From Atribacterota bacterium (GTDB lineage Bacteria > Atribacterota > Phoenicimicrobiia > Phoenicimicrobiales > Stramentimicrobiaceae): a stretch of 42,331 bases of DNA. The first letter of the stretch is position 1; the number at the start of each line of letters is the position of its first letter. Positions 19,363-42,331 of the stretch are shown here, piece by piece. The DNA lies in the NCBI GenBank assembly GCA_028696495.1, contig JAQVGY010000004.1:1-42331 (forward strand), read 5' to 3'. The notes under the pieces are model-generated. The model was not told where the DNA came from. It made no database searches and saw nothing but the letters and a program-made list of their open reading frames with translations. A program made the position numbers and the translations under genes.

Positions 19363-19941
19363 TTATAGAAAAGCTTCATCTTCTTTTGGCAGTTCTTCTC
19401 CTGACATCATTATTTTCTGAATAAGGATAAATAAGCCCACTAAAATCATAATATCACCAACACTGATAATCGATGTATCAGGAAATGGTTTTGGTATTGA
19501 TATAACATCCCCTAAAAAAGCAAATAAAGTATTATCATTCATTAATGAATGAACTACTCTGGTTCCTGATTCTAATAAACCTGTGTTATTAATATTTATT
19601 ATAGCTCCCTGTTTCACTAACACCGGCATACTGCCTCCATTTAACGTGATGACAAAGCCATTGAGTATTAAACCAAGAATAATATACTTAAAACCAGGCA
19701 ATTTTATATTATGAATTGACACATAAATTAATAAAAAATAAGAAATAATTATAATATATGGGCTATAGGTCAAAATACCAGAAATTCCTATTAAATCAAA
19801 AGCCCATACTCCTAACCTCAATAAAAGAGCAGTAGCAAATATAAGCACACCCTCAATCGAAATAGTAAATAATTTTTCTAACTCACCGCCACGCAACAAT
19901 CCGATGATAATGCTTGTAATAATAATGATTACATATAACAT
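19363..19941 (-). CDS. DUF5317-like membrane protein
   Basis: ~190 aa, multiple hydrophobic segments; [24 protein letters not shown]; ...NGGSMPV... ; adjacent to HD-GYP gene. Confidence 0.6.
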
Positions 19942-21176
19942 TAAACCACCTTCTTCTCCTTTATCAAAGAAATAAATGTCCTTGCTATGGCAGGGTCAAA
20001 TTGTTTGCCCGATTCTCTTTCTATTTCCTCTAAAATATCATTTTCAGATAATTTTTTACGATAAGGACGATCCGAATTCATAGCATCATAGGCATCTACC
20101 ACAGCCAGTAATCGGGCTGTCCTTGGTATTTCCTCACCCTTCAGCCCGTGAGGATATCCTCCTCCTTCATAACGTTCATGATGGTGCAAGACAGTCTGAG
20201 AGCATTTTTGTAAAAACTCAATAGAACCGATAATACTCGCTCCAATAACAGGGTGCTCCTTTATTTTATCATATTCCTCATCAGTCAACCTATCCTTCTT
20301 CCCCAAGATGCGGTCTTCAATTCCAATTTTGCCAATATCATGAAGGATTGCGGCATATTCTAAGTATTCGATTTCAGTTTCGGCAAAATCTAATTTTCTA
20401 GCCAGTTGCACAGCCAGATGGGATACTCTTTCTGAATGGCCAAGTGTATAAGGGTCTTTGGCATCAATGGTGGCAGCCAAAGTACGAATAGTATCTAAGT
20501 ATATCTTTCTCATCCTGGTATATAACTCAAATGATTGCCTGGCTAATAGAAGGGGAAAGAAGAATAAAAGAATGCCTAAAATACCAATATGCACATAGAT
20601 AATAGCCATAATAAAGCCCATCGGTGCTTCGGCCAGGTAACTGGGAATAACCTCTTTAATATTGATTCGGTATACTTTTGATACACTCATTCCTGAATCT
20701 AACGAAATCACGGTGGCTACAAGAATTGAATTAACCAGACAATAAGTGAGGGCACATAAGGCAGCCGGTAGCAAGTAATTAATAATATTTTGGGTTCCTA
20801 CCACACCACCAGATGATATATACACTACACCGGCTAAACCGGAGGACAAAGAATATTGAGCAGCATTAAATAAAGTCTTATACCAATTGTCTCTCTTCTT
20901 TAATATTTCCCAGATAACACTTAAAATTTCTACAAGTATAGCCACTGCCGGGCCATAGACCAGAATAATTACAAAACTTATAGGAAAAGCAACTGTTATT
21001 TGACCACCTGCCGGTAAAAAAACAGATAAATATTCAGCCAACATAGCAATAACAGTAAAAAATAGAATGGGTAGCCATATCTCAGATAATATAGGCATGG
21101 TTGGAAGCAATAAAATTAGGAGAATAATTGCTGATATTAAAACTAATGTAATAAATATTTTTAATTTTTGTTTCAA
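19941..21176 (-). CDS. Membrane-anchored HD-GYP domain protein (putative c-di-GMP phosphodiesterase)
   Basis: Multi-TM N-terminus followed by LGHSERVSHLAVQLARKL...ILHDIGKIGIEDRIL...HHHERYEGGGYPHGLKGEEIP. Confidence 0.92.
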   Translation of the reverse strand: MKQKLKIFITLVLISAIILLILLLPTMPILSEIWLPILFFTVIAMLAEYLSVFLPAGGQITVAFPISFVIILVYGPAVAILVEILSVIWEILKKRDNWYKTLFNAAQYSLSSGLAGVVYISSGGVVGTQNIINYLLPAALCALTYCLVNSILVATVISLDSGMSVSKVYRINIKEVIPSYLAEAPMGFIMAIIYVHIGILGILLFFFPLLLARQSFELYTRMRKIYLDTIRTLAATIDAKDPYTLGHSERVSHLAVQLARKLDFAETEIEYLEYAAILHDIGKIGIEDRILGKKDRLTDEEYDKIKEHPVIGASIIGSIEFLQKCSQTVLHHHERYEGGGYPHGLKGEEIPRTARLLAVVDAYDAMNSDRPYRKKLSENDILEEIERESGKQFDPAIARTFISLIKEKKVV

Positions 21177-21228
21177 TTTTTGTTCTCCGTCTGTAATTAC
21201 ATAAATAGGTCGGTGACCCCTTAGTTAT

Positions 21229-21315
21229 TTACCATTTAAACTTGGCGCCACCGGCCAGTAGCAAGGCCATGACACTGATTAAAAAGCTAATTAGTTTGGC
21301 TTTATTAATTTTCAT
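21229..21315 (-). CDS. Unannotated 28-aa hydrophobic peptide MKINKAKLISFLISVMALLLAGGAKFKW
   Basis: ATG at 21315 preceded by strong SD GGAGGTG; cationic N-terminus plus a single hydrophobic helix plus KFKW C-terminus. Confidence 0.5.
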   Translation of the reverse strand: MKINKAKLISFLISVMALLLAGGAKFKW

Positions 21316-21325
21316 GCCGCACCTC

Positions 21326-21364
21326 CACGGTTTTTCTTTGTCCTGAAATAGAACAAGCAAAAAC
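21326..21364 (-). promoter_or_regulatory. Leader hairpin immediately 5' of the small ORF SD
   Basis: CGGTTTTT-GC-TTGTTC-loop-GGACAA-AG-AAAAACCG directly precedes TGGAGGTGCGGCATG. Confidence 0.5.
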
Positions 21365-21486
21365 CGCTACGCTTCGCTCGGGTATAAACCTATTTTTTTG
21401 CTACTTATTATTCCCTCTTAAATGGTTTTATCTAAGTAATCACCGACCTATCTGATTTGTCCTTTAACTTAATTTTAAAAATATTT

Positions 21487-22158
21487 TTATTTAACCAATA
21501 TCCTTCTGTTAATCGCCTGTAAGATTGCCTTAACCAGAGAGCGGTGGGGGTCATCCTCAATCAGGGCGGCTCCCACTAAATTCTCTTTACCCTGTGCATT
21601 AATTAAGTTAATTGATATCAGAATTACCTCCCTGTCATCCAAATTTACCTTTTTAATCTCTTCCACCTGGAAAAACACCTTTCCATTCAAAAAGGAGGTG
21701 ATTGCTTCCAGGGCGGCCCTGGTAACAATATACTCTCTGTTTTTCTCCCAGTTTACACAATTTATTTTTCCCTCAAAAACTTTATTATTATTTTCCAGCT
21801 TAACCTCAACCTGTAAATTGTCTCCCTCAGAGCTAATCAGCAAATCTGTAAATTTTAATCTTTGGGAGAAAGCTTTTTCTTCTGCTACCTGAGCAATACT
21901 AATTTTTCGATAATCAATCTCTATATTGTATTTAGCCATTAACAGTGATTCTACATCCCTGCATATCTTTTTGGGACTGCAGGAATCCTTCGTAATAATA
22001 TGTATTTCCTCGATTTCTTTATTGTTATCTAAACCAATTTTTGAGAATAATACTCCATTTAAAGAATTTATTGATTTTTCAATATCCTTCACCCTGGAAT
22101 CAAACTGAGGTGAAATGATAAAATTGCGAAAATCATTAACAGGGATATTATTCAGCAT
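21487..22158 (-). CDS. Conserved-looking hypothetical protein
   Basis: Long ORF in operon orientation, SD region ahead; IEEIHIITKDSCSPKKICRDVESLLMAKYNIEIDYRKISIAQ segment looks domain-like. Confidence 0.75.
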   Translation of the reverse strand: MLNNIPVNDFRNFIISPQFDSRVKDIEKSINSLNGVLFSKIGLDNNKEIEEIHIITKDSCSPKKICRDVESLLMAKYNIEIDYRKISIAQVAEEKAFSQRLKFTDLLISSEGDNLQVEVKLENNNKVFEGKINCVNWEKNREYIVTRAALEAITSFLNGKVFFQVEEIKKVNLDDREVILISINLINAQGKENLVGAALIEDDPHRSLVKAILQAINRRILVK

Positions 22159-22172
22159 TGGTTCCCCCTTCT

Positions 22173-22721
22173 TTATGCTTCTGGTTCTATCAATCCAAAA
22201 TTACCATCTTTTCTCTTATAAATCACATTAAATTGAGCAGTCTCTTCATTGCTGAAAACATAAAAATTATGCCCCAATAGCTCCATCTGTAAACCAGCCT
22301 CTTCTGGAGACATAGGTTTGATTACAAATCTTTTGGTTCTGACAATTTTTCTTTCCTGCTCGGCAGGAATATCAATACCAACTTCTTCTCTTTCGGAAAT
22401 ATCGGCAACTTTTTCTTTATTGTATTCACTGCCATACTTGCTATACAGCTTTTCTTTATATTTAATTATCTGTCTTTCCAGTCTTTCTACTACCCTATCG
22501 ATAGAGTTAAAAATACTGTCACTTTCTTCCTCAGCTCTAATTATTGACTTCTTAGCCTGCAGAGTCACTTCAAATATATGTCTATTCTTCTCTACACTGA
22601 TGGTAGCAACTGCTTCCAAAATTTGGTCAAAATATTTTTCCAATTTATTCATTTTTTTTCTGACATAATTATCTACAGAATCTGTTACTTCGATTTGTTT
22701 ACCCTTTATGATTAAATTCAT
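22173..22721 (-). CDS. hpf: Ribosome hibernation promoting factor, long form (HPF/RaiA)
   Basis: MNLIIKGKQIEVTDSVDNYVRKKMNKLEKYFDQI; C-terminal KPMSPEEAGLQMELLGHNFYVFSNEETAQFNVIYKRKDGNFGLIEP. Confidence 0.96.
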   Translation of the reverse strand: MNLIIKGKQIEVTDSVDNYVRKKMNKLEKYFDQILEAVATISVEKNRHIFEVTLQAKKSIIRAEEESDSIFNSIDRVVERLERQIIKYKEKLYSKYGSEYNKEKVADISEREEVGIDIPAEQERKIVRTKRFVIKPMSPEEAGLQMELLGHNFYVFSNEETAQFNVIYKRKDGNFGLIEPEA

Positions 22722-22872: not shown

Positions 22873-23088
22873 TTTCCCTCCTTAGACTGACCTGGTCTTT
22901 TCCCCCACATTCGCCTGCTGAGAGGTTTGCTATCTTTTCACTACTACTCTTCTCTTACCATAAAGATATGATAAGGCAGGACTTACTCCAAAACCGCACC
23001 ATGCTCAGTAACTGATAATCGTTACCTTACGTGGATCGCTTTGCCTGCGGCTGGCATCGATTTTCAACCACAGCTCTAAGGAGGGAAA
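22873..23088 (-). ncRNA. raiA RNA: Candidate raiA-motif noncoding RNA (comF-hpf intergenic structured RNA)
   Basis: Perfect 14-bp closing stem TTTCCCTCCTTAGA/TCTAAGGAGGGAAA spanning ~216 nt; internal stems TGCC(AGCCGCA)GGCA, GTAAC(GATTATCA)GTTAC, CTTATCATA(TCTT)TATGGTAAG, CCTGC...GCAGG; located exactly between comF and hpf/raiA. Confidence 0.72.
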
Positions 23089-39508: not shown

Positions 39509-40255
39509 TTAAATATTTAGCACAGGTGGTCTTTTACGTTTATGGGCACTTGTTCGATTCATTGCCAAAATAGTTTTTTCTATCTCTTTATTCTTTAGTG
39601 TTCCGTATTTCAGAAAACTATCTAACTGTTCATAGCTAAAACCCATTTCTTGTTCATCGGTCTGGTTTTCCCATAATCCTGCTGAAGGTGGTTTGGAGAT
39701 TATATTTTCAGGTATTTCCAAAAAACGAGCAATTTCAAATATTTCGGTCTTTAAGATATTTCCTAATGGTAGGATATCAACACCCCCATCACCATATTTA
39801 GTAAAATACCCGATAGATATTTCACTCTTATTACTGGCGCCTACAACTAAATAATCAAAGATACTGGCGAAATAATAGAGTACTATCATTCTTAATCTTG
39901 GTTTAATATTAGCTCTGGCCATTATATTTTTATGGTCGATTTGAGTAATTGATAAAATTTGATGATAAATTGGGGTAAGATCAATATTTTTGTAGTTTAC
40001 ATGGTATTTATTGATAATCTTCATTGCATCAAGAATATCATTTTCAGCACTTTCACAGGGGAGTATTAAAGCCATAGTATTATCAGAGAAGGCTCTCTGG
40101 CATAAAACAGCAAGAACAGCCGAATCCAACCCCCCGCTTAAACCGAAAATAACACCTTTTCTTCCGGCTTTTTCTACACTATTTTTTATCCAGATAATTA
40201 TCTTTTCAACTCTTTCCTGTAATAACTCTTTATTTAATTTTTTATTCTTTTCCAT
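39509..40255 (-). CDS. nadE: NH3-dependent NAD+ synthetase
   Basis: GVIFGLSGGLDSAVLAVLCQRAF; VVGASNKSEISIGYFTKYGDGGVDILPLG; start corrected to MEKNKK (SD GGAGGGAG) because the upstream ORF extension lies in 5S rRNA. Confidence 0.95.
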   Translation of the reverse strand: MEKNKKLNKELLQERVEKIIIWIKNSVEKAGRKGVIFGLSGGLDSAVLAVLCQRAFSDNTMALILPCESAENDILDAMKIINKYHVNYKNIDLTPIYHQILSITQIDHKNIMARANIKPRLRMIVLYYFASIFDYLVVGASNKSEISIGYFTKYGDGGVDILPLGNILKTEIFEIARFLEIPENIISKPPSAGLWENQTDEQEMGFSYEQLDSFLKYGTLKNKEIEKTILAMNRTSAHKRKRPPVLNI

Positions 40256-40273
40256 TCTCCCTCCAATAAAAAA

Positions 40274-40390
40274 TTCCCGGCAGTGTCCTACTCTCCCACA
40301 GATATACTGCAGTACCATCGGCGCTGGAGGGCTTAACTTCTGTGTTCGGGATGGGAACAGGTGGTTCCCCTCCGCCATGACCACCGGGAA
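40274..40390 (-). rRNA. rrf: 5S ribosomal RNA
   Basis: Reverse complement of a canonical 5S with closing helix TTCCCGGTGG...CCGGGAA; GGGAACCACCTGTTCCCATCCCGAACACAGAAGTTAAGCCC. Confidence 0.96.
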
Positions 40391-40433
40391 AACTTAAAAT
40401 AAAAGGTAGTAAAGTATTTTTTTATAGAGTGAT

Positions 40434-42331
<1,898 letters not shown>

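Follow-up and report, generated by a model that had tools for sequence, protein, structure and literature searches.

The window (the whole 42,331-nucleotide stretch of Atribacterota DNA that was analysed) carries on its minus strand a block of genes in the order hpf/S30AE, a gene for a 223-residue protein, the element described here, MASE9-HD-GYP, DUF5317, SecA and PrfB, the last two of which were assigned by reading the sequence (Table 1). The 223-residue protein has no family match above the cut-off. The operon is headed by a raiA RNA, upstream of the hpf/raiA gene; within this Atribacterota order it occurs in 20 of 24 genomes, and it was not found in families f3–f7. The raiA RNA has been described from Bacillota and Actinomycetota (PMC11706538), and deletion of the RNA (ModT) in Clostridioides difficile raises c-di-GMP (PMC11706538), so that two c-di-GMP-linked features lie in one operon. 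At the end of the contig (window positions 40275–42331) there are a 5S rRNA gene and a partial 23S rRNA gene on the minus strand. The ORF listed at 39509–40384 begins in overlap with the 5S gene, and its listed start is therefore too far upstream.

Table 1. Features of the operon and of the element in the window
Feature	Position	Strand	Basis
raiA RNA	22878–23083	−	RF03072, 170.3 bits
HPF/RaiA ribosome hibernation factor (S30AE), at the head of the protein genes	22173–22721	−	PF02482, PF16321
Uncharacterised 223-aa protein	21487–22158	−	Upstream gene conserved across Atribacterota
Outer stem, 5′ arm (AGATAGGTCGGTGATTACTTAGATAAAACCATTTAAG in mRNA sense)	21417–21453	−	Pairing searches; shuffle test
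Motif GAGCGAAGCGTAGCGG	21364–21379	−	Invariant alignment columns; one W position in f1/f2
Hairpin CGGTTTTTGCTTGTTC...GGACAAAGAAAAACCG, immediately 5′ to the ribosome-binding site	21328–21366	−	MFE fold; group consensus folds
Shine–Dalgarno sequence GGAGG	21322–21326	−	AACCGTGGAGGTGC invariant in f1/f2
28-aa ORF (stop included in the coordinates), predicted single-span membrane peptide MKINKAKLISFLISVMALLLAGGAKFKW	21229–21315	−	Conservation, pN/pS
Outer stem, 3′ arm	21203–21240	−	Pairing searches; shuffle test
MASE9-HD-GYP protein, 411 aa	19941–21176	−	Pfam PF20972, PF13487
DUF5317 membrane protein, next operon gene	19363–19941	−	PF17248

The element occupies the space between the genes for the 223-residue protein and the MASE9-HD-GYP protein, and the mRNA sense is that of the minus strand. 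The inverted repeats recorded in a preliminary description of this DNA are present: the ungapped arms (21205–21227 and 21429–21451) are 23 nt long, 83% complementary and separated by 201 nt, and with gaps the pairing extends to the limits given in Table 1. The longest uninterrupted stem of 16 bp (score 33.5) was reached by none of 300 dinucleotide shuffles, and both strands of the segment fold better than all shuffles (z of about −5.6). In mRNA sense the order of parts is a 5′ arm, a motif of the GAGCGRAGCGG type, a hairpin, a strong Shine–Dalgarno sequence, an ORF of 25–29 residues and a 3′ arm. In the window these correspond to the arm TAGGTCGGTGA..., the motif, the hairpin, the ribosome-binding site GTGGAGGTGC, an ATG, 28 codons, a stop codon and the arm ...TCACCGACCTA; the 3′ arm in f1 overlaps the last codons and the stop of the ORF. 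A perfect 12-nt AT-rich inverted repeat (21153–21164 and 21475–21486) lies just outside the element.

Between the arms, the stretch GAGCGAAGCGWAGCGGTTTT...AAACCGTGGAGGTGC is nearly invariant in f1 and f2. In f4–f7 the motif takes the form AGCGRAGCGG and is followed by a covarying hairpin of the CCATCTC/GAGATGG type, with a loop that ends in AGCGRA, in place of the hairpin seen in the window, and then by the ribosome-binding site. The Rfam 15 covariance models gave no match above the gathering score at the element in loci from f1, f2, f4, f5, f6 and f7. A consensus promoter scan for antisense or independent promoters was at chance level relative to shuffles.

The peptide gene and the MASE9-HD-GYP protein

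The 28-residue ORF that the preliminary description had placed inside the repeats proved to be a real gene; its status as a conserved peptide gene and its link to MASE9-HD-GYP did not feature there. The peptide is conserved in 37 Atribacterota loci with a length of 25–29 residues. In the proposed frame pN/pS is 0.11 for f1 and f2 together and 0.20 for f4–f7, a pattern that is absent in shifted frames, and on these values the ORF is under purifying selection. The layout comprises a Lys-rich N-terminus, about 17 hydrophobic residues, LAGGA or LASGA, x-[FLYVA]-x-W and a final 0–2 residues, giving a C-terminal pattern ...LLLAGGAxFxW in which the Trp is invariant in Atribacterota. The f4–f7 peptides are weak matches of the first profile (E values of 9e-4 to 0.95) and were accepted on the basis of their identical synteny and not of these values. 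All named matches of the peptide come from 'Candidatus Atribacteria' or Atribacterota MAGs. No match was obtained among the Pfam, NCBIfam, PHROG and PADLOC profiles, none was found in plasmids, and a literature search for such a peptide returned nothing.

In both Atribacterota and the second phylum described below, the peptide gene is followed by that of the MASE9-HD-GYP protein. Its HD-GYP catalytic motifs are intact and the HD and GYP residues are invariant, and the protein is predicted to be a phosphodiesterase that degrades cyclic di-GMP. The predicted structure has a mean pLDDT of 87.7. With Foldseek, the C-terminal half matches HD-GYP structures and the membrane half (MASE9) gives weak matches to ECF S-components (RibU, ThiT and FolT; probability up to 1.00, E values of 0.08–1). 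These matches are suggestive only, as hints that the MASE9 half might be an ECF S-component-like sensor that binds a small molecule. The collection of papers searched contained none on MASE9.

Position and pairing of the outer stem

The preliminary description had offered two readings of the repeats, one of which was a MITE, that is, a nonautonomous element of the IS630/Tc1 type with a TA target duplication. In the genome from which the window derives (1.09 Mb, about 90% complete) there is one copy of the element. It is present in each of the nine further genomes of the family, with 81–90% identity, and in nine genomes of the sister family, with 75–77% identity over the core, and it has the same flanking genes in all of these relatives. 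The other Atribacterota families examined have the same gene neighbourhood with a different element sequence, and the position is constant in every Atribacterota genome in which the assembly spans the site. No empty site was found in relatives with the locus assembled. In the sister-family genomes without the element the upstream gene either has no match (G013, G014, G015 and G018) or runs off the end of the contig (G011), and as far as can be told these apparent absences are assembly gaps. Family f3 and some f4–f6 genomes lay outside the synteny check for the same reason.

The TA dinucleotides noted on both outer sides are there, and they form the outermost pairs of the stem (T1–A319 and A2–T318, invariant in 17 of 17 order-level sequences) and so do not represent a target duplication. 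The presence of TA at both ends fits stem pairs because TA is its own reverse complement, and in many species the pairing runs on beyond it. Dispersed copies in its own genome, variable or empty sites in relatives with the locus assembled, and a TA duplication outside the repeats were all looked for and not found. Seen in the window alone, the segment is like MITEs and IS630/Tc1-type elements in having inverted ends flanked by TA; unlike these, it is a single-copy segment with a position that is fixed phylum-wide, and its ends covary, being unrelated between families yet mutually complementary. The probability that it is a MITE or another mobile-element remnant is, in our estimation, negligible.

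The homologous loci in f4, f5, f6 and f7 were located with the peptide as anchor, and in these the element again lies between a gene of the 223-residue type and HD-GYP. The arms are unrelated in sequence across families, as is seen from the pairs GGGTGGGCCAACAG/CTGTTGGCCCACCC (L074), GGACCGGGACGAGCC/GGCTCGTCCCGGTCC (L067), ATAGGGTTAGCCGG/CCGGCTAACCCTAT (L072), TTCAGGGCAGGCCAG/CTGGCCTGCCCTGAA (L080) and AGAAAAGGCGGCCAGG/CCTGGCCGTCTTTTTT (L079). To assess pairing, the sequence preceding the motif was matched with that following the stop codon, and the longest helix without interruption was compared with 300 dinucleotide shuffles; this statistic replaced RNAduplex energies, which were too permissive. 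Of 36 loci (families f1/f2, f4, f5, f6 and f7), 31 exceeded the shuffles at p < 0.01, the exceptions being L010, L016, L020, L068 and L081; these loci are not independent and by eye represent roughly nine unrelated arm sequences. When the 5′ region of one family was combined with the 3′ region of another, the family's own score was reached in nine of 1000 combinations. A long-range stem of about 14–21 bp closes the whole unit, and it is shown computationally to be maintained across families through base pairing and not through sequence. The second reading in the preliminary description, of a very long-range mRNA stem around the ORF or a conserved RNA device, is borne out in that the arms change completely between families while their complementarity stays. 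That description had also envisaged a segment that is single copy, identically placed in all relatives and lacking conserved pairing; copy number and position are as stated there, and the pairing is conserved.

In f1 and f2 the 11 outermost pairs hardly vary (97% paired across the 17 order-level sequences), and the changes are nearly all to wobble pairs, with some U–A/U–G exchanges. The compensatory evidence thus lies between families and not within f1 and f2. At the flanks of the Watson–Crick stem cores G–U juxtapositions outnumber A–C juxtapositions (80 versus 36). This excess bears on whether the stem acts at the RNA or at the DNA level, and it makes the mRNA strand, rather than its complement, the likelier one to fold. 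In f6 the 3′ arm runs into T6, and a role of the stem as a terminator in this family is conceivable.

Relatives beyond Atribacterota

The peptide profile built from Atribacterota has matches in other phyla, in genomes G359 (E = 1.2e-6), G370 (4.4e-4), G223 (0.0028) and G095 (0.0046). Five other weak matches were partial or lay within longer frames and were treated as chance. In a second phylum the peptide is present in nine of 17 genomes, as a single gene or in tandem, where two or three near-identical copies lie 122–183 bp apart (tandem copies are seen in L146, L148 and L150). The next gene is MASE9-HD-GYP in each readable case. Conversely, the full-length MASE9-HD-GYP orthologues found by a protein search of this phylum have the peptide directly upstream in eight of eight cases; a ninth orthologue is cut by the end of its contig. 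In G359 a peptide array stands at the end of a contig and no MASE9-HD-GYP orthologue is assembled. Of the tandem arrays of near-identical copies in L146, L148, L150 and L139/L144, several reach the end of a contig, probably because longer arrays break the assembly. Locus L148 has a c-di-GMP-I-GGC riboswitch (positions 1259–1335; RF03167, 61.9 bits) about 160 nt before two tandem peptide genes and MASE9-HD-GYP.

A third group, f53, has a stand-alone peptide gene away from HD-GYP in two of three genomes, and there hpf is followed at once by a MASE9-HD-GYP-like gene, with no peptide gene between the two. The linkage of the peptide and MASE9-HD-GYP genes is constant in Atribacterota and the second phylum and lost in f53. 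The stand-alone relatives L140 (3999–4070 of G370:C60) and L142 (G095:C10) each have a strong inverted repeat after the peptide gene and the common upstream sequence AACCCGACAAAGTTGAAAAATG before it. Inspection of the loci outside Atribacterota revealed no comparable outer stem, from which it follows that stem and peptide are separable and, as regards the second phylum, that the stem would be dispensable for the basic function of the peptide.

Possible roles and comparison with known systems

From the sequence comparisons, the segment is a conserved Atribacterota mini-cistron within the operon hpf – (223-residue gene) – element – MASE9-HD-GYP – DUF5317. We regard this anatomy (a paired mRNA stem and not a MITE, a real peptide gene and a link to HD-GYP) as highly probable. 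The constant linkage to a catalytically intact HD-GYP protein and the maintained stem are evident from the sequences; for the peptide, a role as partner or signal is proposed. The peptide would insert in the membrane and act with the MASE9 sensor domain, whether as its small partner or as a signal that is released, to set the c-di-GMP phosphodiesterase activity of HD-GYP. The outer stem may set the peptide cistron apart as a stable or processable mRNA segment, with excision by RNase III, as in pre-rRNA stalks, and/or protection as candidate routes. Such separation could raise the output of peptide and make its amount independent of the neighbouring genes, an end that the tandem gene copies of the second phylum might reach by dosage. 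We consider it reasonably likely that the element encodes a very small membrane peptide, serving the phosphodiesterase as partner or signal and expressed from a stem-closed mini-cistron, with the molecular role inferred; for the specific mechanism of a partner combined with RNA processing the chances appear to be even at best. A broader proposal, which we put forward tentatively and think rather unlikely to hold in full, is that of an ancient module of at least two phyla, in which the 25–29-residue membrane peptide would be a dedicated ligand or subunit of the MASE9 (ECF S-component-like) HD-GYP phosphodiesterase and, in Atribacterota, would lie within a dual-function stem-closed RNA released from the hpf/raiA operon.

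Three other roles were weighed against that of a membrane partner expressed from a stem-closed mini-cistron. The peptide could be a pheromone, made as a signal-peptide-like precursor from which the C-terminal tail (KFKW, GFSWR, HFRW and others) is cleaved after A-G-G-A or A-S-G-A and sensed by MASE9-HD-GYP, with the stem only tuning expression. The small residues at −3 and −1 before the tail, the identical tandem genes of the second phylum, such as dosage of a secreted signal would call for, and the adjoining gene for a membrane sensor are all consistent with this. However, the tail lacks the divergence between species that is usual in pheromones (note the invariant Trp in Atribacterota), and, MASE9 apart, no receptor, exporter or protease is encoded in the block; we judge a pheromone to be improbable. 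A somewhat smaller probability is given to an attenuator of the leader-peptide or riboswitch kind, in which translation of the ORF, or a ligand at the region of the GAGCGRAGCGG motif and hairpin, would control HD-GYP translation through alternative pairing of the 3′ arm. Such a device would account for the highly conserved noncoding motif before the ORF and for the location of the element directly before HD-GYP. By eye, a few f5 and f6 loci suggested that the 3′ arm might also pair with the ribosome-binding site of HD-GYP, but overall such pairing was no better than in shuffles (p < 0.05 in three of 27 loci, mean p of 0.53). Further, no Rfam riboswitch matches at the element, and the peptide is itself conserved and occurs elsewhere in tandem or stand-alone, unlike a mere leader.

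The combination of a tiny hydrophobic peptide with an mRNA segment that is paired end to end also recalls type I toxins, in which the mRNA is held inactive by end pairing of the hok/fbi kind and by an antisense RNA. This identity is very improbable for a gene with vertical, phylum-wide, single-copy synteny inside an operon; in a consensus promoter scan no antisense promoter scored above shuffles, the ribosome-binding site is not clearly occluded in the predicted fold and copies elsewhere are in tandem and apparently well translated.

Annotation systematically misses tiny genes, and the present one is conserved phylum-wide and beyond. Its predicted partner is fixed, a phosphodiesterase for c-di-GMP that carries a membrane sensor domain, and the peptide is a concrete candidate input for MASE9 sensors. 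The RNA architecture around the gene is held by base pairing alone, and one operon of uncultured bacteria ties together ribosome hibernation (hpf), the raiA RNA and c-di-GMP.

By analogy, the element somewhat resembles dual-function RNAs and small membrane partners, yet it belongs to none of the families tested. Dual-function RNAs with a tiny ORF, such as RNAIII/hld of Staphylococcus aureus, are structured RNAs with long-range pairing and a hydrophobic or amphipathic peptide of about 26 residues. The element has in common with RNAIII the long-range pairing of a structured RNA around or near such an ORF; it differs in that it forms part of an operon, has neither a promoter nor a terminator of its own that could be recognised, and is unrelated in sequence, host phylum and gene context. 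In the mRNAs of hok-like type I toxins the ends pair around the ORF of a small hydrophobic peptide, as they do here, but the element is a vertically inherited single-copy operon gene adjoining HD-GYP for which the promoter scan revealed no antisense antitoxin. The processing stalks of pre-rRNA are long perfect stems that close a segment of the transcript and are cut by RNase III. The outer stem likewise closes a segment of a polycistronic RNA and is kept through pairing and not sequence; it encloses a tiny mRNA instead of an rRNA, and cleavage is here a proposal. KdpF, CydX and AcrZ are small membrane proteins that act as partners of sensors or transporters. The peptide has no sequence relation to these and its putative partner is the MASE9-HD-GYP protein, and it shares with them the arrangement in which a single-span peptide of 25–50 residues is encoded beside its membrane partner.
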